A DNA stretch of 64,000 nt. It comes from Candidatus Tanganyikabacteria bacterium. Lineage in GTDB: Bacteria; Cyanobacteriota; Sericytochromatia; S15B-MN24; VGJW01. Below the pieces are notes generated by a model. It had not been told where the DNA came from and made no database searches. It saw only the letters and a program-made list of their open reading frames with translations. The stretch lies in the NCBI GenBank assembly GCA_016867265.1, contig VGJW01000003.1:124001-188000 (forward strand), given 5' to 3'. A program made the translations under genes and the position numbers. Shown piece by piece: positions 29,766 through 51,000 of this stretch (within the stretch, counting starts at the first letter, position 1; every line of letters starts with the position of its first letter).

Positions 29766-29916
29766 GTCGTGGTTGCGTTTGGCACGAGCGACGGCCTTCT
29801 TCATGACGGTTCCCGGTTTCATGGCAACGTCATTTCCCAGGCCCTTGGCCTTCGCAATATCTCGTTCCCTCCCTTGCCCATTGGTCGGGCCCAGTGCCCA
29901 TTCAGGAGTTCGCCGG

Positions 29917-32614: not shown

Positions 32615-35600
32615 ATGCCGAATCTCTCCGGCGAACGTCAAAATGTGTACCCCGGCACCCGCTCGATTGACGAGAACCTGCCGAACCTGATCGAGATTCA
32701 GAAGCAGTCCTTCGCGTGGTTCCTGAAGGAGGGGCTCAAGGAAGAGCTCGAGTCCTTCTCGCCCATCTCGGACTACTCCAATCGTCTCGAGCTTCATTTT
32801 TTGACGGATTTCAAGCTGGGTGAGCCCAAGTACTCCGTGAACGAGTGCCGTTCGCGGGATGCCACGTATGCCAAGCCCCTCCGCATCAAGGTTCGTCTGT
32901 ACGCCAAGGAGACGGGCGAGATCAAGGAACAGGAGATCTTCATCGGCGAGATGCCGGTCATGACGCCCTACGGCACGTTCATCATCAACGGTGCGGAGCG
33001 CGTCATCGTTTCGCAGATTGTCCGCAGCCCCGGCGTCTACTTCAAGCGCGAGATTGACCCCTCGGGCAAGCGAAGCTACAGCGCGACCATCATCCCGAGC
33101 CGCGGTGCCTGGCTCAAGTTCGAGACGGACTCGAAGGAAGAAATCCATGTCCGCATCGACAAGAACCGCAAGCTTCACGCCAGCGTGCTGCTTCGTGCGC
33201 TCGGCTACAAGCATGACGAGCTTCCCGACCTGTTCAAGCATCCCGAGTTCTTCCGCAAGACCATGCAAGGGGAGGGCAAGGAGGGCAAGTCCGGCAAGGG
33301 CAAGGAGGTCGACCTGTCCGAGGAGGCCGCCCTCATCGAGGTCTACCGCAAGCTCCGTCCGGGCGACATGCCCAGCGTCGAAGGCGGTCGTCAGGTTCTC
33401 GGCAGCCGCTTCTTCGATCCCAAGCGCTATGATCTGGGTCGGGTTGGTCGCTACAAGCTGAATTCCAAGCTCGGCAATTCCGATCCCCTGTCGGCGCGTG
33501 TCCTGACGAGGGATGACATCGTTGCCGTCATCGACTACCTGGTCAGCCTGCATCACGACATCGGTACGGTCGATGATATCGACCATCTGGGCAATCGCCG
33601 CATCCGCAGCGTGGGCGAGTTGCTGCAGGCTCAGTTCCGTGTGGGGCTCACGCGACTCGAGCGCATCATCCGCGAGCGCATGACCATTACCGAGGCCGAT
33701 ACCCTGACGCCCCAGAACTTGGTCAATGCCAAGCCGCTGGTGGCGGCCATCAAGGAGTTTTTCGGTTCCAGTCAGCTGTCGCAGTTCATGGACCAGACGA
33801 ACCCCTTGGCCGAGCTGACCCACAAGCGTCGTCTTTCGGCGCTCGGTCCCGGCGGACTGACGCGTGAGCGGGCCGGTTTCGCGGTCCGTGACATCCACCA
33901 GTCCCACTACGGCCGCATCTGCCCGATCGAGACCCCCGAAGGTCCCAACGCCGGACTCATCGGCTCCTTGTCGACCTATGCCCGTGTCAATGACCTCGGC
34001 TTCATCGAGACACCGTACTACGTCGTCGACCACGGCCGCGTCACGGACGAGGTCCATTACCTGACGGCCGACCTCGAGGACGACCAACGCATCGCCCCCG
34101 GGGATGTCAAGCTGAAACCCCGCGAGGTGGAGAAGGCCAGCGGCAAGGCCTTCCAAGAGTTCGTCGAAGAGACGGTGAGCGTCCGCTTCAAGGGCAACTT
34201 CCAGAAGGTCACGCCCACTGAGGTCAACTACGTGGGCGTGGCGCCCATCCAAATCATCTCGGTCGCAACAGCCATGATCCCCTTCCTCGAGCACGATGAC
34301 GCCAACCGCGCGCTGATGGGCTCGAACATGCAGCGTCAGTCGGTGCCGCTGCTCCGCACGGAGCGGCCGCGCGTGGGTACGGGCATCGAATCCCGGACGG
34401 CCGTTGACTCGGGCATGGTGACCGTGGCCAAGGCTGCGGGTACCGTCACGCGGGTGACGGCGACGTCCGTCGATATCCTCGAGGACGAGACCAAGCAGAC
34501 CCGGACCTACTACCTGCTCAAGTTCCTCCGGTCCAACCAGGACACCTGCATCAATCAGCGTCCGATCGTCCGCAAGGGCGACCGAGTGCGCGAAGGTTCG
34601 CCCTTGGCGGACGGTGCGGCGACCCAGCAGGGCGAGATGTCGCTGGGGCGCAACATCCTCGTGGCATTCCTGCCGTGGGAGGGCTACAACTACGAAGACG
34701 CCATCCTGCTGAGCCAGCGTCTGGTTCGGGACGATGTCTTCACCTCGATTCACATCGAGAAGTACGAGATCGAGGCCCGTGCCACCAAGTTGGGCAACGA
34801 GGAGATTACTCGCGAGGTGCCCAACGTCTCGGATGAGACGCTCAGGGATCTCGACGAGCGTGGCATCATCCGCATCGGTGCTGAGGTCGAACCGGACGAC
34901 ATTCTTGTCGGTAAGGTGACGCCCAAGGGTGAGTCCGAGCATCCCCCCGAAGAGAAGCTCCTGCGGGCAATCTTCGGTGAGAAGTCCCGCGACGTCCGTG
35001 ACACGTCGCTTCGCGTGCCCCACGGCGAAAAGGGCTGGGTTGTCGACGTCAAGGTCTTCAGCCGGGACAATAACGACGAGCTGCCGCCCGGCGTCAACCA
35101 GGTGGTTCGTGTCTACGTCGCCCAGAAGCGCAAGATCAGCGTCGGTGACAAGATCGCCGGCCGTCACGGCAACAAGGGTATCGTTGCCAAGATCCTGCCC
35201 GTCGAGGACATGCCTTTTCTGCCCGACGGTACGCCGGTCGACATCGTGCTGAACCCGTTGGGCGTGCCCAGCCGCATGAACGTGGGTCAGACCTACGAGA
35301 CGACACTGGGACGTGCAGCCGAGTTGTTGGATGCCTACTTCTCGGTGTCGCCCTTCGACGAGATGTTTGCCCACGACGCTTCGGACGAGCTGATCAAGGC
35401 CAAGATGCGTGAGGCGCGTACGAAACTGGTCCAAGACAAGCTGCGTCGTGCGGACGGTAAGGTCTCCGAGGAACAGGCTGCTGCAGAGTTCGCTTGGCTG
35501 GGTGAGGACGGTAAGGCCACCCTGTATGACGGGCGGACGGGTGAGCCGTTCGACCGGAAGGTCACGGTCGGCAACATCTACATGATGAAGCTGGTCCACC

Positions 35601-36013
35601 TGGTCGACGACAAGATCCACGCACGGTCTACCGGTCCGTACTCGTTGGTCACGCAGCAGCCCCTCGGTGGCAAGGCCCAGTTCGGCGGCCAGCGGTTCGG
35701 CGAGATGGAAGTCTGGGCACTTGAAGCCTACGGGGCGGCCTACACCCTGCAGGAGATGCTCACGATCAAGTCCGACGACGTTCCGGGCCGTGCCAAGGCT
35801 TATGAGGCGATCGTCAAGGGCAACAACCTGTCGCGCCCCGGTATCCCGGAGTCCTTCAAGGTCCTGATTCGCGAGCTGCAGAGCCTGTGTCTCGACATTC
35901 ACGTCGCGCGCAGCGATGGCCAGGAGATCGAGCTGTTCGAGATCGAGGAAGAGCGGCGTCCGCCCTTCCAGCGTTACTCGGTGCCCCGAGCCGGAGTTGA
36001 CCTCGGCCTCTAG
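32615..36013 (+). CDS. rpoB: DNA-directed RNA polymerase subunit beta
   Basis: 1132 residues, the short beta form without the E. coli lineage-specific insertions. The rifampicin region [20 protein letters not shown] (382-401) and following [14 protein letters not shown] are fully conserved; the sites matching E. coli Asp516, His526 and Ser531 are Asp393, His403 and Ser408, all the sensitive type. [14 protein letters not shown] and the C-terminal [20 protein letters not shown] clamp segment are present. The start ATG 32615 follows GAAGGGTGG. rpoC is not next; it lies 12 kb downstream. Confidence 0.98.
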
Positions 36014-36032
36014 CTGCCTGACGTGTCTGGTC

Positions 36033-36065
36033 GACGCCCCTTCCCGATGGCCGGGAGGGGGCGTC
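36033..36065 (+). terminator. Hairpin after rpoB
   Basis: A 14-bp stem with one G-T pair (36033-36046 with 36052-36065) and a five-base loop lies 20 bases after the rpoB stop. It has no T-tract, so its strength is uncertain, but it sits where rpoBC operons are usually continuous. Confidence 0.65.
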
Positions 36066-36138
36066 GTGGCTAGATGGACGGTTAAAGGACCTTCGTGCAA
36101 GGGTACGGAAGAACTACTTGGACCGTCAGGGAGGTCCC

Positions 36139-37275
36139 ATGCGGAAGTTCGTCGGTCGACTGGGGTTGGGTTCGCTTGGCCTCGCGCTGGCAGCTTGCGC
36201 CGTGCCGCAGCCTGTGCGGACCGCAGGTGCGCCTGAGGGCGGCGATCTGGCCCAGTTGTCGCTCCTGCCGGACTTCGAAATTGCGCCGCGCGAAGGCATC
36301 AAGGGCCGCGTCACTTGGCCTGAGGCCGTTCGTCGCTTGATGGCAACGCAGGATGATGTCGCGAAGCGGGCCCGCGTCGGCTTGCTGCAGCCGTCGGCGG
36401 CTGGTGAGTTTCGGACGGTCTATACGGCCCTGACTGATGAGGGTGGCAACTTCAACTTCCCTGCCGAGGTCACGGAAGGCGCCAATGGCATTCCGATCGA
36501 TGCTAATAAGGTGCTGATCCTGCAGGCTGAAAACGGGCTCAATAACAATGCCGCCGGCAATAGCTCGGCTCGTCTGCGCACGTTTCTGACCCGCGTAGCT
36601 TCGGGTGCGAGCGGTTATCGCAGCACTTATGAGGATCCGCAGGGCACAGGCTTTGTTTCCATCGACCTCAATACGACGGCAATGGCCGTCATCAAGTCCC
36701 TGCGGGATCAATCCCGAGTCCCTGCCGGCGACATCAGGGGTTTCATCGGCTCTCTGACGCCCAAGACGACGGGCAGCAACCCGACGGTGGCGCCAAGCAA
36801 GGTTGACGTGCTGAAGGTGCCCGATACCGAGTTCCAGACCGTGTCGGCCTTGGTGTTGAATGTTTTGCAGGGCAATCGGGATCCGCTTGCCGCCATCGAG
36901 CTGCGCGATGCGGAGTCCAACCCGAAGCGCTACCTTATCAAGTCCGAATCGCAGCCCGTCATTCAGGATGTTCGTTACATCGGCACCGGCGCCCCACGGA
37001 CCGTATTCCAACCGCTGGATCTCATCCGTGTTTCGGGCGTCAATCTGTCTTATTACAATCAAGGTGTCCTGGAGTTTCAGGGAAAGTCGGGAGTCTTGAC
37101 GGCGCCCATCACGGGGGCGGATCTGAACCAGAACACCTATCTGGACACCCAGGTGCCTCTGGACGTGGTCAAGGGCGTCGCTCAGTTGCGCTATGTGGCG
37201 CAGAACGGCGTGCTTGCCTACGCAACGATGTCCGTAGTGACGCCGCTGGGTGGAAGCCTGACGCCCAGTCGCTGA
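36139..37275 (+). CDS. Lipoprotein of unknown function between rpoB and rpoC
   Basis: 378 residues. The signal peptide ends in the lipobox LALAACAVP, with GGGAGG six bases before ATG 36139. The mature sequence contains GIKGRVTWPEAVRRLMA near residue 60 (the Trp-Pro echoes the RWP motif of the neighbouring operon), a beta-rich TALTDEGGNFNFPAEVTEG, a helical centre (FVSIDLNTTAMAVIKSL) and a C-terminal RVSGVNLSYYNQGVLEFQ that may be IPT-like. Codons look less GC-rich than in rpoB (many ending in T or A). It converges with the minus-strand lipoprotein operon; function is unknown. Confidence 0.8.
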   Translation: MRKFVGRLGLGSLGLALAACAVPQPVRTAGAPEGGDLAQLSLLPDFEIAPREGIKGRVTWPEAVRRLMATQDDVAKRARVGLLQPSAAGEFRTVYTALTDEGGNFNFPAEVTEGANGIPIDANKVLILQAENGLNNNAAGNSSARLRTFLTRVASGASGYRSTYEDPQGTGFVSIDLNTTAMAVIKSLRDQSRVPAGDIRGFIGSLTPKTTGSNPTVAPSKVDVLKVPDTEFQTVSALVLNVLQGNRDPLAAIELRDAESNPKRYLIKSESQPVIQDVRYIGTGAPRTVFQPLDLIRVSGVNLSYYNQGVLEFQGKSGVLTAPITGADLNQNTYLDTQVPLDVVKGVAQLRYVAQNGVLAYATMSVVTPLGGSLTPSR

Positions 37276-37464: not shown

Positions 37465-38640
37465 TCAGTTGATGAATACGCTGGCCGTTGCTTGATTCAG
37501 GTCCGTGATTCCGAAGTAGACCTTGTCGAGGCCTGACGCAGGCTTCTGTGCAGGTGCCGTGTAGACACCTGACTGGTTGACGACGCCAAGTCTGCGTCGG
37601 TTTTCTGGATTCGTGTTGAAGAAGTCGGGTTCGGCGAGCCGATCGGCATTGACCTTGAAGGTGATCTTGGGATTCTGGGGCACGAACTCGGCGTTGTCGG
37701 TGTCGAAGCACTTGCCGACGAAGGTCTGGCTGCCGCCGGCCGACAAGTCTGCCGTCGTCGGCGAGATCGAGAACCGGGAGATCCGCTTGAAGGCCGGCTG
37801 CAGGCTGGCTGTGGCTCCGCCATTGACGAGTTGGATCTTGCCCTTGGTCATGCTGCTCTGGACCGGGAACTGCAGCATGCCCCGACCGGCATCCGTCAGG
37901 CCGTTCGTGACGCTGCTGGCCTGGACGCCACCGACGAAGATCTTGAAGGAATCCGGCGCGCCGGGTTCGAGGATGTCTTCGACATGAAGCGTCATGAGGA
38001 AGCCGGTTGGTGCCGCATCGACGGAAGCAGTCGCGTCCGCGCCCACCTGCTCGTAGACTCCGAGCAGGCGCGGCTCACCACTGCGGATGAAGGAAAGACG
38101 AGCCTTGTTGCCGGCTCCCGGAACCAGGTTGACGTTGGCCGTGGCTTCGGCCCTCTGCGTGCCTAAGCCATCCCGGTCATCGTAGGCTCTCGCAGTAACC
38201 TTGGCGAAGCCGAGCGGCAAGTTCTGGAAAGAGGCTGCCACTGGCGACGAGGTATCCGAGAAGAGGTTGATGGCCCTTTTTGGAAAAGTACCGAAATGTG
38301 TCACGGTGGAGCCGTAGTCCGGCTCGAGGGTCTGGTTGCCAACGGTCAAATAGACCTTGATGGAGCCGCTCTGGCGAACCGCGAGAGGTAGCGACTGCAC
38401 GGCTCGGGCGGTCGCCTTCTGGACGAACCGTATGGTGAGTTGGGCGGTACGCGCTATATCTGCCACCGGTGCGGCGGCTGCGGGATCGGACTCGGGAACC
38501 AGGGCCAGGCGGCCGAAAGCCGTGGAAGCGGATGCGTCTTCCACCTGGGAAGGCGGTGCAGACAGGGTGGTCACGGCACAGCCGGCGAGTACCGTCGACC
38601 AGAGGGCCAGGCCCAAGCGCGAATGCGTGACGTACTTCAC
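37465..38640 (-). CDS. Lipoprotein, last gene of the minus-strand operon
   Basis: 391 residues from GTG 38640. The lipobox is STVLAGCAV. An N-terminal beta domain of about 150 residues ends in ATANVNLVPGAGNKARLSF, which resembles the GST-x5-PN block at the end of the shared domain of its neighbours, so it may be a divergent member. The C-terminal part reads as an Ig-like domain (ISPTTADLSAGGSQTFVGK ... GVVNQSGVYTAPAQKP), a big-2-type pattern. The start overlaps the preceding gene (GTGA). Confidence 0.78.
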   Translation of the reverse strand: MKYVTHSRLGLALWSTVLAGCAVTTLSAPPSQVEDASASTAFGRLALVPESDPAAAAPVADIARTAQLTIRFVQKATARAVQSLPLAVRQSGSIKVYLTVGNQTLEPDYGSTVTHFGTFPKRAINLFSDTSSPVAASFQNLPLGFAKVTARAYDDRDGLGTQRAEATANVNLVPGAGNKARLSFIRSGEPRLLGVYEQVGADATASVDAAPTGFLMTLHVEDILEPGAPDSFKIFVGGVQASSVTNGLTDAGRGMLQFPVQSSMTKGKIQLVNGGATASLQPAFKRISRFSISPTTADLSAGGSQTFVGKCFDTDNAEFVPQNPKITFKVNADRLAEPDFFNTNPENRRRLGVVNQSGVYTAPAQKPASGLDKVYFGITDLNQATASVFIN

Positions 38641-39185
38641 AGTTCGATCTCCACGGTCAAGCCGGCCGGCTCGGGTGTGGGGCTGGGGGTTGGTGCAGGC
38701 GTCGGATTCACGACCGGGTCGGTCGTGCCGCCGCCTGCGCCACCGTTGCCGCCGCCCGAAATCTGTGTCCCGAGAGGTACGGGCGTGGGGGTCGCGGTGG
38801 TTCCGCCCCCTCCACCTACCGAGATGGGCGTGGCCAATGGCGAGGGCGTGGCCAATGGCACGGGCGTGGCCGTCGGTGCGGTGGTGTTACCGCCACCTCC
38901 ACCGGAGACGGGTGTGGCGAAGGGTGCGGGCGATGGTGTGACCGTCGAGCCTCCCGTGCCGCCGCCCGCATCCACCTTCCCCGCAACTCCACCGTTTTGC
39001 TTGGGCACCGTTCCGCTGGCTGCCGTCGAAGGAGTGGCCGAGGGCTGGGGCGTTCCGGAAGTCTTGCGGAGCGTCCGCGGGGTGACCGCATCGTCGGCGC
39101 ATGCTGCCAGTGTCAGGGTGAAGGCGATGCAAGTGGCCGCCACGATTCCGTGCCGGCGCCTGGACAGGGTCATTGTCATCTCCAT
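38637..39185 (-). CDS. Low-complexity lipoprotein (Pro/Thr/Gly-rich stalk)
   Basis: 182 residues. The signal peptide ends in the lipobox LTLAACAD. Nearly the whole mature part is low complexity: TPSP/ATP units and Gly runs (VSGGGGGNT, VGGGGGTT), closing with PTPAPTPSPTPEPAG and a short LTVEIEL. It is probably a flexible surface stalk or linker. Starts at 39185, 39179 or 39173 are all possible. It overlaps the next gene by four bases. Confidence 0.72.
   Translation of the reverse strand: MEMTMTLSRRRHGIVAATCIAFTLTLAACADDAVTPRTLRKTSGTPQPSATPSTAASGTVPKQNGGVAGKVDAGGGTGGSTVTPSPAPFATPVSGGGGGNTTAPTATPVPLATPSPLATPISVGGGGGTTATPTPVPLGTQISGGGNGGAGGGTTDPVVNPTPAPTPSPTPEPAGLTVEIEL
38826..38879. repeat. Three 18-bp tandem repeats
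   Basis: Units beginning GGGCGTGGCCAATGGC start at 38826 and 38844, with a third, more diverged unit (GGGCGTGGCCGTCGGTGC) at 38862. They encode the ATPSPL/ATPVPL units of the stalk lipoprotein and may vary in number between strains. Confidence 0.75.
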
Positions 39186-39251
39186 CCCTCGCTTCGAGGT
39201 CTCGGGATCAACCTACCCGCAGGCTGCCGCCTTTATGCGATGGCGTACCGT

Positions 39252-41243
39252 TCAGGGCGTGATGACGGGCGAGACGGTGGCGGTCAGGGCGTGATGGAAA
39301 GCGATGAGCGCGTCCCATTCCCCCAGAGCGGGCCCCGGTCCGTCCGGATCGGTCTTCATGTCCGGTGGTTGCCGCATCTCAGGCGCCAGATTGACGGCCT
39401 TGGTGGCGAAGCGTTCATAGAAGTGTACGGCCGAGAACAGGTCCGGTTGGCTGCCGTTGTGGAAGTAGGGAGCCGTCTGGGCCACGTTGCGTAGGCCGGG
39501 CGTCTTGAACTTGCCTTGGTCACTCGCGAGCCCCGTGACACCACGACGCCCCGGATCGCCGGTGCCGAACTCGTCGAAGCCGATGTTGTGGAACTTGTTG
39601 TCGGTGAAGAGCGGGCCGTTGTGGCAGGCTGCACAGTTGGCCTTGCCCGTGAAGATGGCGAGACCCCGTATCTGGTCCGCCGACATCGCGTTGTCATCCC
39701 CGAGCGTCCACCGGTCGAAGGGTGCCGCCGCCGGATTGGGTGTGTTGTCAGGCCTGCGCCCTGCCGGCGACACGTGTGAACGGACATAAGCCGCAATGGC
39801 CCTGCGTGCCAGCAGACCATCGGGCGAGGAACCATAGACGGTCTGGAAGGCCTGAACGTAGCTGGCACTGGCTTGAAGCGTTGCCGTTATGGCAGCTTCG
39901 TTCGTCGCAAACTCACGCGGGCGCTGGAAGACCAGCAGGTGTTGCTTCTCGAGGGAATCCGCAGCACCGTCCCAGTTGAATAGCGTGTTGAACGCGGTAT
40001 TCCAGATCGTCGGCACGTGGCGAGGAAGTTCCTTGCCGTCCTTGTCGATCCCCAGCTTCAGGCCATCCCCGCCGCCCAGGCTGTCCTGATGGCAACTGGC
40101 ACAGGACATCTTGCCCGTCGAGGAAAGCGTCGAATCGGCAAAGAGTCGCTCCCCCAGTTCGAACTCGCTGCGCGGCACAGGCGTGATGGCGGGCATCGGG
40201 CCCATGTTCCACTTGGCCAGGTCAGCGCGACCGAAGGCGTGGACCTCGAACGAGACGGTCGCGTTCAGGGTGTCGTTGCCGAGGCGGACGGCGATGGAGC
40301 CGGGCGTTTCCGGAAGGACGAAACAGCCCCCACCCTGGACGAAAAGCTCCTTGAGCCGCAAGTTGGGCGCGCAATCCCCGTCCGCGCAGCGGCGGGACCA
40401 GTGGGTCGCCAGCGACAGCGGGTCCAACGTGCTGCCGTCGTGGGCGTAGGCCTTGGCGCGCAGTTCAACGAGGCCTCCCGGAGCATGGGCAGCGGTGCTG
40501 AGAACCTCGATGGAGATGGACGCAATGCGCCGGATAGTCTGGCGGTAGGTGTTGACTTGTCCTGAGACATCGACGGCCACGGTGCCGCTCGTGAAGTCGG
40601 CGGGCGGGGTCACGACCAGGTTGGTGTCACTTCGCGTCGCGATGGCGGATTCAGGCAGGACCTTGCCGTCCAGGCGAACCTCGAGGGGCAGGCGACTCGT
40701 CCAGCCGAAGCCCTGCCCGCTGATGCTGAGCTGCTGGCCCGGAAGCGGTTGCTTCGGGTCCACGTTGAAGATCGTGACCGGGATGATGTTCTGCAAGGTC
40801 AGGACGGCGGGCACAAGAGTGTTGGGCGCGACGACCACTTCGGTCGAGCCCGTCGCGAGCAGGCCGCCCGATGCCGAGAGAGCCTCGGCGGTGATGGAGA
40901 CCGTGCCGGGCTCAAGCGGTTTCAGGCTGCCCGTTGCGATCGGGGTGTCACCCTCCCGGACCAGGGTCAGCACCACGGGGGGGCCCCCCGAGCCATCTCG
41001 GGCCTTGAGTGTGAGGGATGCGATGTCGGCGGGGATGACCTGAGTCGTGCGCTGGGGCCAGCGCAGGCCCACCCGCACTCCGCCTTGCCCTGCCGGCAGC
41101 GCGGTGCCTGCCGGATCGGCAACGCGCACGGCTTCCTCGGACGGCGACCCGCTGGCCGCAGGCACTGCGGCATCCCGGCATCCCCCGAGGGAAAGGCCGG
41201 CAAGCATCGCGGTCACCGCCAAGAAGAATATCCGGGTTCGCAT
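39252..41243 (-). CDS. IPT-domain lipoprotein fused to di-haem cytochrome c peroxidase (MauG family)
   Basis: 663 residues. Lipobox LGGCRD; then a domain of about 100 residues containing GLRWPQRTTQVIP and GSTEVVVAPNT that is shared with neighbouring lipoproteins; an IPT/TIG domain (VDPKQPLPGQQLSISGQGFG); an Ig-like stretch; and from about 355 a bacterial cytochrome c peroxidase with two haem motifs, CASCH (near residue 382) and CAACH (near 538). SEFELGERLFADSTLSS and GLRNVAQTAPYFHNGS are typical of that family. It would reduce peroxide or oxidise a protein in the periplasm. A fusion to surface Ig-like modules is not the usual peroxidase layout. Confidence 0.9.
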   Translation of the reverse strand: MRTRIFFLAVTAMLAGLSLGGCRDAAVPAASGSPSEEAVRVADPAGTALPAGQGGVRVGLRWPQRTTQVIPADIASLTLKARDGSGGPPVVLTLVREGDTPIATGSLKPLEPGTVSITAEALSASGGLLATGSTEVVVAPNTLVPAVLTLQNIIPVTIFNVDPKQPLPGQQLSISGQGFGWTSRLPLEVRLDGKVLPESAIATRSDTNLVVTPPADFTSGTVAVDVSGQVNTYRQTIRRIASISIEVLSTAAHAPGGLVELRAKAYAHDGSTLDPLSLATHWSRRCADGDCAPNLRLKELFVQGGGCFVLPETPGSIAVRLGNDTLNATVSFEVHAFGRADLAKWNMGPMPAITPVPRSEFELGERLFADSTLSSTGKMSCASCHQDSLGGGDGLKLGIDKDGKELPRHVPTIWNTAFNTLFNWDGAADSLEKQHLLVFQRPREFATNEAAITATLQASASYVQAFQTVYGSSPDGLLARRAIAAYVRSHVSPAGRRPDNTPNPAAAPFDRWTLGDDNAMSADQIRGLAIFTGKANCAACHNGPLFTDNKFHNIGFDEFGTGDPGRRGVTGLASDQGKFKTPGLRNVAQTAPYFHNGSQPDLFSAVHFYERFATKAVNLAPEMRQPPDMKTDPDGPGPALGEWDALIAFHHALTATVSPVITP

Positions 41244-41248
41244 GCGCG

Positions 41249-41884
41249 TTACTCCACGACAACGTCCATCGCAGATTCATCGACGATGGACACGGGCAGC
41301 GTCATCTTCATCCGACCGTCGAGGCTCTCGACGATGATCCGGGCCGTACCCGTCTCGTCGTCGGCTTCGAACAGCCCGGGTTCGACCTCGTCCAATTCGA
41401 CGTCCCCATCCACTTCGATGGTGAAACGGGCTCTGGCATCCGTGCTTTGGTCGTTCAGTCGGATCTCGGGTACCAGACGAAGGGTGTGCGGGCGCAAGGG
41501 GGTGCTGCCCACTACTGGAGCGACGCCCAACTCGAGGGGGGTCGTCCCGTCGAAGTACGGGGCATCCGGGCCTGCACCCAGACGAACGCGGATGCCGGTC
41601 GCGAACTTGCCCTCCGGGTAGCTCTCGACGAACGGAGGGCTGGAAACCGGGGTCGGAACGACTGTGGGCAGTGTCGTCGGCACTGCCGTCGGGAGGGCCG
41701 TGGGCGCAGCCGTCGGTGTCGTGGCGATTCCTGGTGTCGGGCTGACGGGAGCCTCACCGGTCGACGGACTTGCACCCGGTGGGGCCGTTGCGAGCAGGCG
41801 CGCAGGAACGAGGGCCTCGCAAGCAGGGACGAGCGCCATCGCCAGGGCGGCGCTACCGAGCGCCAGAGTGCGTCGTGCGAACAT
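41249..41884 (-). CDS. Lipoprotein with Pro/Thr stalk
   Basis: 211 residues. The N-terminal ALAMALVPACEAL is lipobox-like (Cys22). A stalk of TALPTAVPTTLPTVVPT units follows, then a small C-terminal domain that is Glu/Asp-rich and beta-like (TGIRVRLGAGPDAPYFDG, IEVDGDVELDEVEPGLF, DGRMKMTLPVSIVDE). It stands five bases before the peroxidase gene, so they are cotranslated. No known family. Confidence 0.75.
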   Translation of the reverse strand: MFARRTLALGSAALAMALVPACEALVPARLLATAPPGASPSTGEAPVSPTPGIATTPTAAPTALPTAVPTTLPTVVPTPVSSPPFVESYPEGKFATGIRVRLGAGPDAPYFDGTTPLELGVAPVVGSTPLRPHTLRLVPEIRLNDQSTDARARFTIEVDGDVELDEVEPGLFEADDETGTARIIVESLDGRMKMTLPVSIVDESAMDVVVE

Positions 41885-42003
41885 CAGGCGACCTCGTGTG
41901 CTGCGCTGGAAGGGACTGGGGCACGCGCCGAGCCTCTCGTGGCGGTCTTGGCAGCACGCGTGGCCATGGGCGGCAGGACGCGGGGGCGATCCATCCGGAC
42001 CAT
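41884..42003 (-). CDS. Possible 39-residue protein bridging two lipoprotein genes
   Basis: ATG 42003 overlaps the stop of the upstream gene (TGATG) and the stop overlaps the start of the next gene in the same way. The product is very basic and Ala/Arg-rich (VRMDRPRVLPPMATRAAKTA). It could be a real coupled small gene or merely a frame that fills the 118-base gap. Confidence 0.3.
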   Translation of the reverse strand: MVRMDRPRVLPPMATRAAKTATRGSARAPVPSSAAHEVA

Positions 42004-43139
42004 CACTTCCGGACCTCGATGTCGACGGTTGCCGTCAAGGGCGGCACGCCCACGACAAAGCTGCCGAACCCTTCCTTCAGGCATCCCTTGTAGGCATCCA
42101 CGACGGACACGCTCTGGGTGAGCGCGTCCACGGCCTCGAGGCTGAAGAATTCGTCATCGCCGCAATCCACTTGCACCGGAACCTCGTCATAGACCGGGCG
42201 CCCACCCGTCAGTCCGTTGGGCGGACGCGTGACGGGCTGTCCCGAGGCATTCAGGAACGAGACGGCAAAGGTGGGCTTGTCGTCTGGACCCATGATCAGC
42301 AGTCTGGGCAAGACGGATACGGACGCGATGACCTCGATGGTTTCGCTCAGCGTTGCGCTCTGGCCGTCTATCGTCAGGACCAGAGGACCGCCCGTCGCGT
42401 CTGCCGGCACCCGGAACGACAAGGTGTTGTCCGAGGCCCTGCCCAGCGGTGGCTCGCCGGGCAGCCCCACGAGCGCATCGCCCTCGATTGCGCGATTCCC
42501 TAGTTTCAGGCTGAAGCTGGCGCCCCGGGTGGCACCGAAGCCATCGCCATCCAGCGTGACGACCTCTCCTCTGAAAGCGGTCACGGGGTTGGCGCGCCGC
42601 AGCGCAAGAGGCTGATCGGGAGGGGCGAGGGTCACGAGCGCGCGCCCTCGGGTGTTGGGCAGGAGATGGACGCGGGTGCTGCCTGCCACGACGAGCTCGC
42701 GCAGCGTGTTGCGTCCCTCGACGAACAGGGTCCAGTTGCCCGGCCTGAGACCGTAGAAGGTGGCTTGACCGACCGAACCGACAAGTCTCGGGATGGTTCG
42801 ACGCTCGGTCGGCAGATCGTTGGTATCCGGGACAAGGCGACAAGCCAGTTCCCGGACTCCCTCGGGGATGACCTGGGTGCTGCGTGCGGTTGGCCAGCGC
42901 ACCGAGAGCGTCAGGCTGGCCGCCGGCAAGACGTTTTGTGAATGGCCTTCAGGGACCCCTGTCCTATCGCGGAAAGGTCGCTCGCCAACAGGATCTGATC
43001 CCAAGGCCGCTGGGGCACCAGAGAGCTGGCAGGCTGTCGTCAGCACGGCGGCGAGGCTGCAAGCCACGACGACCCTCCCCCTCAATCCCTTCCCCGAGGA
43101 AGACCGGGGTGGGAGGGAGCTCAGGGAGGAGGGGGTCAT
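42003..43139 (-). CDS. IPT-domain lipoprotein with shared RWP/QVIP domain
   Basis: 378 residues. The lipobox is LTTACQLS, after a longer basic N-terminus. The shared domain reads SVRWPTARSTQVIPEGV with GSTRVHLLPNT about 80 residues later. An IPT/TIG domain (VTAFRGEVVTLDGDGFGATRGA, PLVLTIDGQSATL) and an unassigned C-terminal part follow; the C-terminal part has two Cys (QVDCGDDEF and YKGCLKEG) that could form a disulfide. Part of the operon running from 47777 to 37465. Confidence 0.82.
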   Translation of the reverse strand: MTPSSLSSLPPRSSSGKGLRGRVVVACSLAAVLTTACQLSGAPAALGSDPVGERPFRDRTGVPEGHSQNVLPAASLTLSVRWPTARSTQVIPEGVRELACRLVPDTNDLPTERRTIPRLVGSVGQATFYGLRPGNWTLFVEGRNTLRELVVAGSTRVHLLPNTRGRALVTLAPPDQPLALRRANPVTAFRGEVVTLDGDGFGATRGASFSLKLGNRAIEGDALVGLPGEPPLGRASDNTLSFRVPADATGGPLVLTIDGQSATLSETIEVIASVSVLPRLLIMGPDDKPTFAVSFLNASGQPVTRPPNGLTGGRPVYDEVPVQVDCGDDEFFSLEAVDALTQSVSVVDAYKGCLKEGFGSFVVGVPPLTATVDIEVRK

Positions 43140-43148
43140 GGACGCTGT

Positions 43149-44495
43149 TTAGGGTGTGATGGTGACGGTCGCCGAGGCTCTCAGGCTCGAGAAGCCGAAC
43201 TCGACGACTTCGGCACTGCCGGTCGACACACCGATGAACTTGCTCGTGTAGGGCGTGCCGGGCGGGACCGTGGCGCCCGGTGAGGGGACGACCGTAGGCG
43301 TCTGGACGTCGTAGGGCGAGATGAGATAGCCGCCCGAGACAGGGTCCAGGAAGCTCTTGCCGTAGACGGGTGCCTTGGAATCAATTAGCTCCCATCCCAG
43401 ATCGTTGCCCTTGAACTGGTAGACCTTCTCGTAGGCCTGGGCGGCATAACGCTCGACACTGACCGAGTCCGAACCAGCACCCATCCGGAAGGCCGGCGCT
43501 CCGGCCTTGCCACGGTAGAGAGAAAGGTCAATTTCATCCGCACCGCTGAAGGCCTTGCCGATGAAGACGATGTCGAAGCTCGAACTTGCCGCCAGCGAAG
43601 TGGTGGCCTGGGGCGCCGCCGACTTCGACAGGCTCGCGGTTTGCGGCGTGATCGTCACGCGGTCGACGCGTGTTGCCGTGTTGGCGCTGCACTTCGTGAC
43701 GCCGCTGATGGCCACGCAGAGGGGTTCGTTCTTCGACAGGTCCCCCGGAACCTTGACGGACAGCAAGCCCTTGCCATCGCCCAACTCGATGAAGCTGCGG
43801 TTGGCGCCACTGATGGGCACACCTTGGTTGTCGTTGCCGAAGAAGACGGACATGCCACCGGCGGCGTCCTGGCCAACGCCGTCAAGGCGAACGTTGACGG
43901 TATCCCCGAGGGTGACGAGTTCGGCGCTCAGTTTGCCCACCTCGTGGATGATCGTCGGGATGAGGTTGAGCGAGACCTTCGTGTTGACATTGGGGGCGAC
44001 TGTAAAGGTCGTCGAACCCGATGCCACGACCACCGAATCGGTCGACACGGCCATGTTGACGGTGTCGTAGCGCGTGTACGCCAGGACCGTCATCTTCGCA
44101 GAGCCGATGGCAACCTGATCAAAGACAATGGAGGATGTGGCTTCCCCAACCTTGCGTATGGCTGTCTTGGTCAGCGAAACACTGGGGGAGCCGGCCTCGA
44201 GGGTGAAGGCCAGGGCATTCGTGATGTCCGGAATGACTTGAACCTGCCTGTCCGGCCACCGGATCTCGAAGGCAACGCGGCCGGAAGCGAGGTTGGTCGG
44301 TGACGCGATGGCTGCCAAGTCAGGAAGCGGTGCCGCACTCTGGGGGTTCGACTCCGGGGTCGGTGGCTTCACGCTCTCGGGTGTCGCCACGCAGGCCCCA
44401 ATCAGCAGGGTGGCGGCGAGCGAAAGACCACCGGCGACGACGTGCTTGAGCAGCAGACGATGGGGGGTGCGCGACATGGCCTGATTGACTCCCAT
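43149..44495 (-). CDS. Lipoprotein with shared RWP/QVIP domain
   Basis: 448 residues (or 442 from ATG 44477). The lipobox is LLIGACVAT. The shared domain reads FEIRWPDRQVQVIPDITN and ends GSTTFTVAPNVNTKVSLNL. The central part is IPT-like (LVTLGDTVNVRLDGVGQDAAG, with SVFFGNDNQGVPISG). The C-terminal 170 residues contain another beta sandwich (SSSFDIVFIGKAFSGADEIDL ... ISPYDVQTPTVVPSPG). ATG 44495 directly follows the stop codon of the upstream gene. Confidence 0.8.
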   Translation of the reverse strand: MGVNQAMSRTPHRLLLKHVVAGGLSLAATLLIGACVATPESVKPPTPESNPQSAAPLPDLAAIASPTNLASGRVAFEIRWPDRQVQVIPDITNALAFTLEAGSPSVSLTKTAIRKVGEATSSIVFDQVAIGSAKMTVLAYTRYDTVNMAVSTDSVVVASGSTTFTVAPNVNTKVSLNLIPTIIHEVGKLSAELVTLGDTVNVRLDGVGQDAAGGMSVFFGNDNQGVPISGANRSFIELGDGKGLLSVKVPGDLSKNEPLCVAISGVTKCSANTATRVDRVTITPQTASLSKSAAPQATTSLAASSSFDIVFIGKAFSGADEIDLSLYRGKAGAPAFRMGAGSDSVSVERYAAQAYEKVYQFKGNDLGWELIDSKAPVYGKSFLDPVSGGYLISPYDVQTPTVVPSPGATVPPGTPYTSKFIGVSTGSAEVVEFGFSSLRASATVTITP

Positions 44496-45263
44496 CTACC
44501 GCACCTCGACCGTGACCCGGCCCTCGCCGGAGACTTCGATGGCGAAGGTGCGCGTCAGGAACTTGTCCACGGCACCCACTGTTTCGGAAGGATCCAACGA
44601 CGTCATGACAAGGGTGGTCTTGCCCGGTTTCTTGCCCGTAAGGCGCCAGAACTTGGTGGCGCCACCAAACGGCAGGGGCTTGGATTGCTCGACCACGGTC
44701 ACGATGCTGGTGTCATTGGAGACGACCGTCAAGTCCTTCGTTACCTTGCCGGGGTCTGTGTAGATAACCTTGGGTTCGATATCCAGTTCCCAGCCTGGCT
44801 GGAGCGGTTCGTTGCCTGAGCCCGGATCGACCGAGAGGGTCGCGGGCTCGGCAAGAGGTTCGGTCTTGCCCAGCGCCGACAGGGTGATGGCGGTGACCAG
44901 CACGGAGGCGACGGGGATGGTGGTCGGCGCCACCGTCGGACTTGGCGCAAAAGTCGGGCGCGGGGACGGGGTCGGCGTGGGCGCCGACGTGGGGAAGGTC
45001 GTGCCCGTTCCCGGCCTGGGTGTGACGAGTCCGCCGGCTGACCCGCCTGGAGCTGCCGTAGGTGCCGTGCCGCTGCCAACTTGGCCCCCGATCCCCGCCG
45101 CCGTCGGGCTGGGTGTAGGCCGGGGAACCGCGTTCCGAGCCGGCGCGGCCGTCGGGTCAACCGTCGGAAGCCCGGTCGTGCTGGCATCGGCGCAAGCGGC
45201 CAGCAGCACCAAGCCTACGGCGGAGTGCCGCACGGTCCGTCGCAGGAAGGATTGTCGGGGCAT
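44496..45263 (-). CDS. Lipoprotein with Pro/Thr-rich stalk and Ig-like C-terminus
   Basis: 255 residues. The lipobox is LVLLAACADA. About 95 residues of Ala/Pro/Thr-rich stalk (TPSPTAAGIGG, PTPTPSPRPTFAPSPT) lead to a C-terminal domain with a big-2/Ig-like pattern (VIYTDPGKVTKDLTVVSNDTS, WRLTGKKPGKTTLVMTS). The ATG at 45263 is 54 bases after the large IPT lipoprotein, with the G7 hairpin between them. Confidence 0.78.
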   Translation of the reverse strand: MPRQSFLRRTVRHSAVGLVLLAACADASTTGLPTVDPTAAPARNAVPRPTPSPTAAGIGGQVGSGTAPTAAPGGSAGGLVTPRPGTGTTFPTSAPTPTPSPRPTFAPSPTVAPTTIPVASVLVTAITLSALGKTEPLAEPATLSVDPGSGNEPLQPGWELDIEPKVIYTDPGKVTKDLTVVSNDTSIVTVVEQSKPLPFGGATKFWRLTGKKPGKTTLVMTSLDPSETVGAVDKFLTRTFAIEVSGEGRVTVEVR

Positions 45264-45288
45264 GGGTTGAAGGCAAGTCCTGTATGTG

Positions 45289-45311
45289 GCGGGGGGGCAA
45301 GGCCCCCCCGC
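45289..45311. repeat. Poly-G/poly-C hairpin between two operon genes
   Basis: A perfect 10-bp stem GCGGGGGGGC/GCCCCCCCGC with a three-base loop lies between the stop of the large lipoprotein (45318) and the next start (45263). It may attenuate transcription or protect the upstream mRNA, and its G7 and C7 runs may vary. Confidence 0.7.
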
Positions 45312-45317
45312 TGTGGG

Positions 45318-47777
45318 TCAGTTCATCGAGGTGTACTGGACGGAGTTGGTGTTGCCACACCAGCCACCGATCTTGTACACGAACCGGCCGCAGGTAACCG
45401 TGGTTCCGCCGCCGCCGAAGTCGACATTGGCGTTGCCGTAGTAGGGCCAGCAGCCCCCTGCATTCTGCGGTGCGTTGCCGTCCGCCGTGAGCGTCGACCG
45501 CCGGACCTCGGTGCCACCGCACCAGGGACCGAGCATGTACAGATATTGGCCGGCGGCGAAGGCACAAGCACCGTAGTTGCCGCAGAATGCGCCGCCGCCC
45601 GTCTGGTTCCAGCCGCCGTTGGGCGTGCCGTCGTCGTTGATGTTCAGGTACGAGGTGTAGTTGTACGTGAGCCACCACAGGCGATTACCTACGAAGACAA
45701 TGGGCGTCTCGGCATTGCCGGTGTAGGGACCGGTCTGCCAGCCACCGGAGTAGCTGTCGTTCGCGGGGTTGTAGGTCTTGTAGAAGAACGGTGTGCTGCA
45801 GTAACCGGCCATGCCGTAGACACCGCGACCGCTGCCCACCGAGCTGAGCTCGGACGCGCACCAGCGGATGTCATCCCGGCTGTTGCCGTTCCACTGGCCC
45901 CAGCCACTTCCGGCATTGCCTTCGATGTCGAAGCTGAGGTAGCCCGCGGCGCTGCTGCCTTCATCCTGGAAGACGTAGAAGCGCTTGCCTACCCAGTTGT
46001 CGAAGGTGCCGGCCATGTCCTGCTGACGCAGGGCCCAGCTGTAGTTGCCCGCGAACTGCAGGCCCGAGGCCGGACCTCCGTCGTTGTTCAGGTCGAAGTA
46101 GTATACGGTGTTCTGCTCGGCGGGCAGGATGTAGAAACGCTTGCCCGACCAGAAGCCGGCATTCATGTTGCCGCCGCCGTGACCGCCTGAGACATACGCC
46201 CAGTTCGAGTTGTTGAGGTTGCCGTCGATGGTCGCCACCGTCGAGTCCGCCTGGGCACCCGAAGCAAGGCGCACGGATACCGCCGTCGCGTTGCTTGCCC
46301 CGATGGCGGAGGGCACCCGGCAACGGATGGTGGTGTTGGTCCAGTACTGAATCATGGCCGCCTTATTGCCTATCGTGACCGAGCCCAGCGCCGTGCCGAA
46401 CTTGTCACCCTTGATCTGGACGTAGCCATGGGAACCGACGCTACGTGGGTAGATCTCGGAAATCGTGACGGAGTTGTCGATCATCGTCAGGGGGTAGGGG
46501 TCGGACAGCCCATTGGGGTTGTAGAGGTAGACCGGCCCCGAGGTGGCATCGGCAGGAACCTTGAGGTACAGCGACCTCGACCCGCTGATTCTCGTGTCGT
46601 AGGTCGACACCGAGGCCGTCGCCACCTTGCCGCTGCTCAACGGGAACGCCTTGCCCGTTGCCTTGTCCAGCATCGTGAAGTAGACCTCGTTCTTCGCGAT
46701 GTTGGCACCGGTCATGAAGCCGTAGCCCGAAATCTTGCAGTACTCGTCGAACTTGACCGGCAGGCTGCTGTTCAAAGGGTAGCGCTCGATATTCAATATG
46801 TTGACGTTGACGCCAGGAGGCACCTGAAAGTCGACCTCGGCGGCCTTGCCCAGCGATTCGATACGAAGCTTGCCGGACGCCGCCGTCGCGGGGACGAGCA
46901 CCGTGACCATGTTGGGACGGACACTGACAGGCGTCTGCGGGGGAGCCGAAGACCCGCCGAAGCGTACGACGGTTCCTCCGGGATAGGATGCGAAGCCCGT
47001 GCCGTTGATGGTCACGAGCGTGCCGGGCCCCCCCGATGTGGGTGAGATTCCCGATATGGTCACGGCGCCGGTCGTTGGAAGGTTGCCAATGGGTTCCATG
47101 CCGGCCAGCAGGTAGTTCTTGACGGCCAGCGCGATGTCCTGGATTTCGGCGGCAGCCACGGCGCCCACGCTGGCTGCGCTGAGCTGGACGCTGCTCGAGG
47201 TGACGGCCACCTTGCCGATCGAATCCGCCACGTTGATGCGGCCTTGGCCCACCAGGATGGCAAGGGCCGTGGTGAGCTGATTGATGACGATGCCACCGCC
47301 CACCGTGCCGTTGCTGATGGACTTCCAGCCGCCTGCCGTCGCATCCCACTGCACGATGGTGCGCATACGCAGGATGGGCGAGCCCGGAGCCGAGCTGACG
47401 GCCTTCGCCGCCTCGAGGTAGTAATAGCGGCCATCCGGGGGCGCGGCGCCACCCTGGTAGGTCAAGGTGAAGCCGCCGGAGTTGTCGCTCAGGCCCGAGC
47501 CCACGGGCTGGCCGGTCGACAGGTCGATCAGCGAGATGGTGGCCTGACTGGCGATCGAGGCCAGCTGGGCGTCCGTCAGTTGCTGATTTTGGCTGCTGAG
47601 CGACCCGGGCTCGCGCACGGACCCATAGATGACGAATCGTGCCGGGTCCCATCCTTCGGATGCCTCAGCCCCGGCCGCCCGCTCCGGATTCGTGCCGGCG
47701 ACGCGCCCCGGCAACGACGAACAACCCACGGCCAGAATGATAGCCGATGACAGTCCCCACCTCTTCCACGCGTTCAT
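45318..47777 (-). CDS. Large multi-IPT lipoprotein with W/G-rich propeller-like C-terminus
   Basis: 819 residues, first gene of the operon. The lipobox is ILAVGCSSL. A helical/beta N-terminal region with SLIDLSTGQPVGSGLSDNSGGF (carboxypeptidase-regulatory-like) precedes three IPT/TIG domains (near 240, 330 and 440: ISGISPTSGGPGTLVTINGT, EYCKISGYGFMTGANIA, ISEIYPRSVGSHGYVQIKGD). The last 270 residues contain repeats with W, Y, G and N and many paired Cys (WSGKRFYILPAEQN, WVGKRFYVFQDE, FVGNRLWWLTYNY, GWCGNTNS), suggesting a kelch-like or propeller fold stabilised by disulfides. It is an outer surface protein; the ligand is unknown. Confidence 0.85.
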   Translation of the reverse strand: MNAWKRWGLSSAIILAVGCSSLPGRVAGTNPERAAGAEASEGWDPARFVIYGSVREPGSLSSQNQQLTDAQLASIASQATISLIDLSTGQPVGSGLSDNSGGFTLTYQGGAAPPDGRYYYLEAAKAVSSAPGSPILRMRTIVQWDATAGGWKSISNGTVGGGIVINQLTTALAILVGQGRINVADSIGKVAVTSSSVQLSAASVGAVAAAEIQDIALAVKNYLLAGMEPIGNLPTTGAVTISGISPTSGGPGTLVTINGTGFASYPGGTVVRFGGSSAPPQTPVSVRPNMVTVLVPATAASGKLRIESLGKAAEVDFQVPPGVNVNILNIERYPLNSSLPVKFDEYCKISGYGFMTGANIAKNEVYFTMLDKATGKAFPLSSGKVATASVSTYDTRISGSRSLYLKVPADATSGPVYLYNPNGLSDPYPLTMIDNSVTISEIYPRSVGSHGYVQIKGDKFGTALGSVTIGNKAAMIQYWTNTTIRCRVPSAIGASNATAVSVRLASGAQADSTVATIDGNLNNSNWAYVSGGHGGGNMNAGFWSGKRFYILPAEQNTVYYFDLNNDGGPASGLQFAGNYSWALRQQDMAGTFDNWVGKRFYVFQDEGSSAAGYLSFDIEGNAGSGWGQWNGNSRDDIRWCASELSSVGSGRGVYGMAGYCSTPFFYKTYNPANDSYSGGWQTGPYTGNAETPIVFVGNRLWWLTYNYTSYLNINDDGTPNGGWNQTGGGAFCGNYGACAFAAGQYLYMLGPWCGGTEVRRSTLTADGNAPQNAGGCWPYYGNANVDFGGGGTTVTCGRFVYKIGGWCGNTNSVQYTSMN

Positions 47778-47905: not shown

Positions 47906-47934
47906 TTGACCCTTTGCCTCTGCCGGCCTACAAT
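47906..47934 (+). promoter_or_regulatory. Sigma-70-type promoter of rpoC
   Basis: TTGACC (47906-47911) and TACAAT (47929-47934) with a 17-base spacer are a near-consensus pair. Transcription would start near 47941, giving a leader of about 140 bases before the rpoC ATG. An own promoter is needed because rpoB is 12 kb away. Confidence 0.88.
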
Positions 47935-48083: not shown

Positions 48084-51000
48084 ATGAGTTCCCGGTTTGA
48101 CTACATCAAGGTCGGTATCGCCTCCCCGGAGCGGATCCTCAGTTGGTCCCGGGGTGAGGTCACCAAGCCGGAGACCATCAACTACCGCACGCTCAAGCCG
48201 GAAAAGGACGGCCTTTTCTGCGAGAAGATCTTTGGCCCCGCCAAGGATTGGGAGTGCCATTGCGGCAAGTACAAGCGTGTCCGCCACAAGGGCATCATCT
48301 GCGAGCGCTGCGGCGTCGAGGTCACGGACTCCAAGGTCCGGCGCTACCGCATGGGTCACATCCAGCTGGCCGCGCCCGTCGTGCACATCTGGTACCTCAA
48401 GGGTATCCCGTCGTACCTTTCCCAGTTGCTCGACATCCCGCTGAAGAATCTCGAGAACGTCGTTTACTTCAACGAGTACATCGTCCTTGATCCCGGCACG
48501 GGGGCCATCGACGGCAAGGCCCTCGAGTATGGACAGACCATCAATGAGGACCAGTACGAAGAGTTCGAGTCCAAGGAGGCCGTCTTCACGGCCAAGATGG
48601 GCGCCGAAGCCATCAAGGAACTGCTGGATCGCCTGGACCTGCAGGCCGAGCGGGACAAGCTCACGGTCGATGCCGAGTCGACCAGCGAGACCAAGCGCCT
48701 GAAGGCGATCAAGCGCCTGCGTGTCGTCGATTCGTTCCTGTCGGCCGGTGCGCGCCCGGCATGGATGGTCCTGGACGTCATTCCCGTCATCCCGCCCGAT
48801 CTGCGTCCCATGGTGCAGCTCGATGGCGGCCGTTTCGCCACGTCGGACCTGAACGACCTGTATCGTCGCGTCATCAACCGCAACAATCGCTTGCGCCGCC
48901 TCAAGGACATGGGCGCGCCGGACATCATCGTTCGGAACGAGAAGCGCATGCTGCAGGAAGCCGTCGACGCGCTCATTGACAACGGCCGTCGTGGTCGTGC
49001 GGTCGTGGGCCCCAGCCAGCGCGCCCTCAAGAGCCTGTCGGACATCATCGAAGGCAAGCAGGGGCGCTTCCGTCAGAACCTGCTGGGCAAGCGCGTCGAC
49101 TACTCGGGTCGTTCTGTCATCGTCGTCGGTCCCAACCTCAAGCTGCACCAGTGCGGTTTGCCCAAGGAAATGGCGCTCGAGCTCTTCAAGCCATTCGTCA
49201 TGAACAAGCTGGTCGAGCGGGGCATCGTCCAGAACATCAAGTCCGCCAAGAAGAAGATCGAGCGCGGCGAAACCATCGTGTGGGACATCCTCGAGGAAGT
49301 CATCCGCAACCACCCGGTCCTGCTGAACCGCGCCCCGACGCTTCATCGCCTGGGCATCCAGGCCTTCGAGCCCCTGCTGGTCGAGGGTCGCGCCATCCAG
49401 ATTCATCCGTTGGTCTGTACGGCGTTCAATGCCGACTTCGACGGTGACCAGATGGCCGTCCACGTGCCCCTCTCGGTCGAGGCCCAGACCGAAGCCCGTC
49501 TGCTGATGCTGGCTTCCAACAACGTCCTCTCGCCGGCAACGGGCAAGCCGATCATCACGCCGACACAGGACATGGTTCTCGGTTGCTTCTACCTGACGGT
49601 CGAGAATCCTCGGGCGGATCGCGGCAAGGGTCTGCGCTTCAAGAACTTCTCCGACGTCCTGTCGGCCTTCGCCGAGGGGCGTGACAAGCGTGATACCCAT
49701 GCGGTGCTCGATCTTCACGCCAAGGTGGTGGTCCGCTTCGAAGGCGCAAGGGAAGAGGACGCCGTCGATGCCGACGAGATCGCCGCGGGTGTCTATGACG
49801 AGCCCGAGGCGCGTGCGTGGTTGGCCAAGGGCTTGCGTGACGGACGCGTCATGGTGACGACGGCCGGCCGCATCATCCTGAACGAGGTCCTGCCGGAGGA
49901 GTTCCCGTTCCTCAACAAGGTCATCGACAAGAAGGGCCTCGAGCGGATCATCCAGCGGGCCTTCTCGCAGATTGGTTCGTCCCGCGCCGCGCATCTGGCC
50001 AACGAGCTCAAGGGCCTGGGCTTCAAGTACGCGACCCGAGCGGGCGTCTCCATCGCCATCGACGATCTGATGATCCCGAAGGCCAAGAAGGAGTTGCTCA
50101 AGGTCGCGGAAGCCGACATTGAAACAGCACAGCGTGACTTCTTCGCGGGCGAGATTACCGAGGTCGAGCGCTATACCAAGGTCATCGACACTTGGGCACG
50201 GGTCACCGAGCAGCTCAAGGGCAAGGTGAAGGAAGAGTACGACCGCTTGAACTCGGTCTACATGATGGCCTTCTCCGGCGCACGAGGAAACATCACTCAG
50301 GTGAGTCAGTTGGTCTGCATGCGCGGCCTGATGGCTGACCCGTCGGGCCGCATCATCGACTTGCCCATCAAGTCGAACTTCCGTGAGGGCCTGAACCAGA
50401 CGGAGTACATCATTTCGTCCTACGGCGCCCGCAAGGGGTTGGTCGACACCGCACTCCGCACCGCCGACTCCGGCTACTTGACCCGTCGTCTTGCGGACGT
50501 GGCGCAGGATGTCATCGTTCGCGACGAGGATTGCGGCACGCGTCGCGGGCTGGAACTGCGGGCGATCGTCGAAGGCGATCGTGTCATCGTACCTTTGGCT
50601 GACCGCGTGGTGGGCCGGGTGGTTGCAGCCGACGTCCTCGACGCCGAAGGTCGGGTCATCTTCGAGCGTGGGCACCTCCTGGGCTTCGAGGATGCTGACC
50701 GCATCGCATCTGAGGGCATCACCAGCATCCAGGTCCGCTCACCGCTCACGTGCGAGAGCCCTCGTGGCGTCTGCCGTCACTGCTACGGCTGGTCGCTGAC
50801 CAACCACCAGCTCGTGGACATCGGCGAGGCTGTCGGCATCATCGCGGCGCAGTCCATCGGTGAGCCTGGTACCCAGCTCACGATGCGGACCTTCCACACG
50901 GGCGGCGTCTTCACGGCCGAGGCGACCACGCTGGTCGAGCGTGCCTCCAAGGCCGGCAAGGTCCGGATCCCGGAGCCTTTCGAGACCCGCGAGTTCCGGA

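Follow-up and report, generated by a model that had tools for sequence, protein, structure and literature searches.

What do eight consecutive lipoprotein genes do between rpoB and rpoC, and does any of their products have a known biochemical relative? The question is raised by a window of 64,000 nucleotides (nt) from a Candidatus Tanganyikabacteria bacterium (G000:C3:124001-188000, where G000 is the genome, C3 the contig, and L-numbers mark the loci compared). The assembly comprises 2.85 Mb in 41 contigs and is 98% complete, and the class of the genome is represented by 18 genomes among those searchable. G001 belongs to a sister genus, and G000 to G003 are listed in one family. The nearest relatives of the RpoB of the window are found in Cyanobacteriota and their kin (about 66% identity), and its RpoC is unsplit (1888 amino acids, aa); the source thus seems to be a Cyanobacteriota lineage without photosynthesis, perhaps Sericytochromatia. 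The eight genes lie on the minus strand at 37465-47777 with gaps, in transcription order, of 54, 0, 9, 118, 5, 66, and -4 nt (Table 1; genes are named by their lower coordinate). Gene calls, strand, and short gaps thus bear out the operon layout given by an earlier sequence-only reading. That reading could match the operon to no described system and overlooked the only part with a known biochemical relative, a di-heme enzyme of the MauG type, as well as a repeated two-gene unit, a probable Kelch-like propeller, and the position between rpoB and rpoC. The explanation that we tentatively prefer is that a class-specific lipoprotein scaffold displays this peroxide-using oxidase outside the cytoplasm, beside partner lipoproteins that it possibly modifies.

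The enzyme is encoded by gene 39252, whose product consists of a lipoprotein stem with a domain here called D, a TIG and an Ig-like domain (D-TIG-Ig), fused to a di-heme domain of the cytochrome c peroxidase (CCP)/MauG family (CCP_MauG, PF03150; E 4.2e-41, 141.5 bits at a gathering cut-off of 25.6 bits). As in the MauG/MbnH/BthA group of this family, there are two CxxCH heme motifs (residues 381 and 537), a conserved Trp424 that matches the inter-heme tryptophan, and a tyrosine at the position of MauG Tyr294: the C-terminal query aligns gap-free to MauG 275-302, and Tyr609 falls on this heme ligand. The tyrosine is invariant in the five fused homologues, while canonical bacterial CCPs (bCCPs) have Met as the ligand of the electron-transfer heme at this position, both in the reference enzymes and in a separate Met-type peroxidase of the same genome (G000:C9), which also encodes a cytochrome c assembly protein. 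By these sequence features, 39252 is a Tyr-ligated di-heme enzyme of the MauG type on a membrane-anchored stem. It differs from the MauG/MbnH/BthA group in this stem and in its neighbors, which are stalk and propeller lipoproteins. Searches of G000 for the MADH light chain (PF02975) and for MbnP (TIGR04052) gave no match, the former with no match in the control genomes either and the latter without any positive control match. Full D-TIG-Ig-MauG fusions number three in G001 and occur also in G000 and G002, and G004 has a probable contig-truncated copy; in the other families of the class the fusion is absent and the CCP/MauG proteins all stand alone, often with the Tyr ligand. Two arrangements may be recorded here: at L207 (G000:C10:90000-105000) about 3 kb separate a 455-aa frame for a Tyr-type CCP/MauG protein from a 725-aa frame for a D lipoprotein, and at L158:4052-5746 (G001:C39) genes that read as motA- and motB-like, of the flagellar motor, adjoin D-MauG lipoproteins on the rpoB side.

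By sequence, the nearest solved relatives of the di-heme domain are bacterial di-heme peroxidases (E 2e-39), followed by MauG (E about 1e-17), and the distal Gln/Glu region can be aligned in the window copy. Lipoprotein CCPs exist in other bacteria. These points favor a membrane-anchored CCP that detoxifies external hydrogen peroxide, with the stem domains (D, TIG, Ig) and the remaining lipoproteins as mere spacers. We consider this rather unlikely, as Tyr replaces Met in all five fused copies, a Met-type CCP is already encoded elsewhere in the genome, the distal Gln and/or Glu are gone in two G001 copies, and the conserved operon partners would go unexplained. The bCCPs share the fold family with 39252, which differs from them not only in its ligand but also in being a multi-domain lipoprotein.

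Under the explanation preferred here, each two-gene unit would yield a pair of exported, lipid-anchored proteins, a stalk-Ig and a D-TIG-Ig lipoprotein. In one unit the D-TIG-Ig stem would bear the di-heme oxidase and tether it at the membrane, in an operon headed by a propeller lipoprotein. Oxidation by hydrogen peroxide would bring the heme pair into a high-valent state like that of MauG, and this state could then oxidize a Trp, Tyr, or Cys of a neighboring operon protein, with the stalk-Ig partner and the propeller protein as the likeliest targets; the outcome would be a cofactor, a metal site, or a cross-link built in the target. MauG-type enzymes that act on, or are encoded beside, other periplasmic proteins are known for MADH and for the methanethiol oxidase gene mtoX (PMC6405878; PMC5739008). 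The gene order, domain anatomy, heme motifs, Tyr ligand, recurrent pairing, and conservation across genera are directly observed; the chemistry, the substrate, the binding of a partner, and the location at the outer membrane or cell surface are inferred. Our confidence falls from co-transcription to export as far as the outer membrane or the cell surface, then to MauG-like oxidation of a partner, and finally to the donor-strand pairing considered below.

Several findings weigh against oxidation of a partner by 39252. Its best NCBIfam matches, MauG (TIGR03791, 181 bits) and MbnH (TIGR04039, 138.9 bits), are far below the equivalog cut-offs of 443.85 and 362.85 bits, and orthology with either enzyme is therefore rejected. 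The loss of distal-pocket residues in the two G001 copies counts here as well. Since D-less, Tyr-ligated CCP/MauG domains are common elsewhere in the class, the Tyr ligand alone is no proof of protein modification. The stalk partner 41249 contains no Trp, varies in sequence between the genera, and has no obvious conserved target residue. Searches of G000 for the MADH light chain (PF02975) and for MbnP (TIGR04052) gave no match, the former with no match in the control genomes either and the latter without any positive control match.

The stem of the enzyme links it to a larger set of proteins. BLASTP detects a shared N-terminal block between 39252 and 42003 (6e-11) and between 39252 and 43149 (1e-3), and a profile adds a diverged fourth copy in 37465; the shared domain and its weaker copy had both been recognized from the letters alone. 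The motif RWP-x5-QVIP, which had been assigned to three genes, has this spacing only in 42003, with four residues in place of five (RWP-x4-QVIP) in 39252 and 43149; GST-x5-PN is found in all three as claimed. Domain D is about 97 aa long, nearly always sits shortly behind a lipobox, and was found with a profile built from 28 members (alignment A2) in 18/18 genomes of the class, with 1 to 64 copies each (the maximum in G001). Elsewhere in the phylum there were only marginal matches in two of 274 genomes (E 5e-4 and 8e-4, one crossing a stop), and none of the 34 genomes reached via loci of other lineages had a match, in a search that lacked its own positive control, although the same profile matches strongly within the class. 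A Pfam scan of the 28 members returned no convincing family, only scattered weak matches with one or two members per family, and NCBIfam gave nothing over its cut-off in D genes without MauG. By sequence, D is thus a class-specific lipoprotein domain, and it has no Pfam or NCBIfam name, the latter as had been suspected. Among the outcomes that would speak against it, the sequence-only reading had named beforehand a D that is a known Pfam Ig-like family and is spread widely without linkage. The Pfam scan rules out the first half; the second is what the genomes show, as D copies mostly lie outside operons of this type, and a domain specific to the window operon is ruled out by the class-wide spread.

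What follows D is variable: nothing large, TIG-Ig, or a cargo, for example Kelch (L182) or NHL repeats (L218, L220). A structure model of a D protein (alignment A3) has a predicted local distance difference test (pLDDT) score of 52 overall and about 60-80 in D and TIG, and is all-beta and Ig-like at most; the PDB neighbors of this low-confidence model are generic tandem-Ig chains, with the surface glycan-binding lipoprotein SGBP-B first. Pro/Thr stalks are a typical feature of surface proteins. These folds, the D-Kelch and D-NHL proteins, and the absence of an enzyme from most D proteins of the class would suit a structural or adhesive surface assembly, in which stalk and D proteins build a coat or fibers, ligand binding falls to the propeller, and the role of the heme enzyme is at most cross-linking or else decorative. 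This is possible but on balance doubtful, as it gives no reason why the fused enzyme of G000, G001, and G002 has kept its Tyr ligand and its two hemes. The SGBP-B/SusE-like lipoproteins of Bacteroidetes resemble the D proteins in architecture, with a lipobox and tandem Ig-like domains that present a distal functional domain, and in a weak fold match, but there is no detectable shared sequence family, no Sus or polysaccharide utilization locus genes were seen in the region examined, and the phylum is different. At L214 (G001:C49:1-20000), at least eight D-containing lipoprotein open reading frames (ORFs) stand in a row on the same strand, and the single one scanned has Kelch and NHL repeats. 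The C-terminal half of another D lipoprotein (L208:2178-3998, G000:C40) looks by eye like a formylglycine-generating enzyme (FGE), with no Pfam match at 0.01.

Three times in the window, a lipoprotein with a Pro/Thr stalk immediately precedes a D-TIG-Ig protein (44496/43149, 41249/39252, and 38637/37465). The pair of stalk and D-MauG genes recurs in G001:C8, G001:C39, G002:C81, and G004:C245, while the third D-MauG copy of G001 has no upstream stalk gene. Among further D genes, 14/22 have a stalk partner directly upstream (6 of the 14 recognized by eye); in an earlier survey of cargo-bearing D genes this was the case in 1/30. The two lipoproteins of a unit probably act as a pair, and they may be in contact through a strand. 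Most stalk proteins end in an extra beta strand, and donor-strand complementation, in which this strand would slot into an Ig-like domain of the D protein encoded next, on the model of type V or chaperone-usher pili, would be compatible with the other explanations. A looser alternating aliphatic pattern, picked after the data had been seen, fits 13/13 first-found partners and 12/14 later ones, compared with 2/133 background ORFs. The strict pattern, fixed before the held-out loci were inspected with a criterion of 80%, fits only 6/14 held-out partners (0/133 background ORFs) and is rejected. The best hint that the strand may matter on its own is that 38637, which has no Ig domain, keeps its stalk and the strand GLTVEIEL; conversely, the strand may be an ordinary Ig-domain end or in part reflect the ribosome-binding site of the next gene. 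Donor-strand joining is improbable, and its parallel to the type V pili of Bacteroidetes, which are assembled by donor strands from lipoprotein precursors, is speculative: the window operon has no pilin family match, and its donor strand is a sequence-based proposal. We give as little credit to a wider version of the idea, in which the two-protein module, possibly donor-strand-joined, is an interchangeable display platform and one family captured a MauG-type enzyme that matures operon partners oxidatively outside the cytoplasm.

The head gene 45318 probably ends in a Kelch-like propeller. Its C-terminal region contains repeated GxxLYxxGG...DG units, Kelch_1 is reached by 2/5 homologues (best E 0.005), and a profile match links the region to thiocyanate-forming protein (E 0.0018), which is a Kelch protein. 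The assignment stays at probable because the structure model of the propeller alone failed (pLDDT 32, unusable). A galactose-oxidase-like propeller was dropped because the propeller alignment contains no conserved His or other candidate copper ligand. Quinohemoprotein amine dehydrogenase combines Ig, di-heme, and propeller parts, but this is a resemblance only, the heme domain here belonging to PF03150. A limited literature search found no described system with this operon architecture.

The operon lies between two genes that nearly always stand side by side. They belong to a gene cluster that ranks among the best conserved in bacteria (PMC8046335), and rpoC directly follows rpoB in 78/78 resolvable reference loci. 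In G000 the two genes are 12 kb apart with the operon between them; in G001 they are on different contigs (at least 25 kb apart), in G002 they have different neighbors, and in G003 they are intact. They are also adjacent in G007, G010, G012, G013, and G015. On G001:C8, antisense upstream of rpoC, there are genes for a CpR/TIG-like lipoprotein, a propeller lipoprotein, stalk-Ig, D-TIG-Ig, stalk-Ig, and D-TIG-Ig-MauG. As the independent assemblies of G000 and G001 place the same operon divergently upstream of rpoC, in the same order and orientation, misassembly is disfavored. The set is thus co-inherited, which agrees with the co-produced assembly proposed earlier, except that domain D does not define the operon. 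Unrelated lipoprotein genes might also have gathered by chance at a recombination-prone rpoB/rpoC break, in line with the other genes beside rpoB and rpoC in G002, where the operon is elsewhere, and with the TIG lipoproteins on the rpoB side of the adjacent pair in G003. This is very unlikely given the order and orientation shared by G000 and G001 and the survival of the operon core at a distance from rpoC in G002 and G004. Three minor points concern the genomes compared: G003:C317 (L159) has a third-position GC content of about 0.55-0.6, against about 0.9 in G001-G002, despite being listed in the same family; the rpoB match at G010:C139:3866-7087 (L125, L168) has one in-frame TAG; and L017 (Spirulinaceae cyanobacterium SM2_1_0), the sole roomy reference locus not resolved as adjacent, shows no rpoC within some 10 kb after rpoB.

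Spacing and conserved order suggest that the eight genes are co-transcribed. Promoter-like and terminator-like sites show no excess over chance across the operon stretch, which fits a single transcript without showing one; before rpoC there is one promoter-like site, where 1.5 are expected by chance. Lipoboxes, called by eye and with a simple pattern after a PS51257-like consensus, are acceptable in 7/8 operon products and in 36118, so that the claim of a lipobox in every product fails only for 41249 (LVPAC, with Pro at -2). The products are predicted to be exported to the outer membrane or cell surface. Of the modules proposed earlier, TIG (PF01833) is solid in 45318, where both copies pass the gathering cut-off (52.9 bits, 3.8e-14), and falls below threshold in 39252 and 42003; the eight products gave no Pfam match to a carboxypeptidase-regulatory domain. 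A phage origin was rejected, as none of the three genes scanned had a PHROGs match.

Table 1. Coordinates of the operon genes and of the genes around them in the window.
Feature	Position	Strand	Details
Head gene, lipoprotein, 819 aa	45318..47777	-	Two TIG (46860-47060, 46266-46466); C-terminal probable Kelch-like propeller region 45321-46235
Stalk-Ig lipoprotein partner, 255 aa	44496..45263	-	Lipobox, Pro/Thr stalk, Ig-like domain, C-terminal strand RVTVEVR (44499-44519); homologue at matching place in G001
D-TIG-Ig lipoprotein, 448 aa	43149..44495	-	D 43953-44288; homologue in G001:C8
D-TIG-Ig lipoprotein, 378 aa	42003..43139	-	D 42618-42923; no stalk gene immediately upstream; low-confidence all-beta model
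Stalk-Ig lipoprotein, partner of MauG-type protein, 211 aa	41249..41884	-	C-terminal strand AMDVVVE (41252-41272); lipobox off consensus
D-TIG-Ig-MauG lipoprotein, 663 aa	39252..41243	-	D 40782-41090; di-heme domain ~39264-40211; CxxCH 40089-40103 and 39621-39635; Tyr609 codon 39417-39419
Stalk-only lipoprotein, 182 aa	38637..39185	-	Lipobox, Pro/Thr/Gly stalk, no Ig domain; C-terminal strand kept (38640-38663)
D-TIG-Ig lipoprotein, 391 aa	37465..38640	-	Diverged D 38080-38448; 4-nt overlap with stop of 38637
Ninth lipoprotein gene in rpoB-rpoC gap	36118..37275	+	Lipobox; weakly resembles G002 genes that neighbor related lipoprotein clusters
rpoB	32615..36013	+	Very stable hairpin 36022-36080 directly after (fold z-score -5.2)
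rpoC	48084..53750	+	Promoter-like site 47906-47934 (TTGACC-17-TACAAT)

With these data, a nameless class-wide lipoprotein domain acquires a profile, a distribution, and a partner gene, and a bacterial family is documented in which rpoB and rpoC are set apart. A heme enzyme of the MauG type that carries its own membrane tether would be a natural place to seek new oxidative protein modifications. Elsewhere in the window, 29902-31203 encodes a subtilase (Peptidase_S8, 1e-60) with a fervidolysin-like prodomain, possibly an exported protease near the operon; upstream of rpoB, 24451-25854 is a further lipoprotein-like gene with a sub-threshold CarboxypepD_reg match; and 19174-21141 encodes TPR repeats fused to a protein kinase domain.

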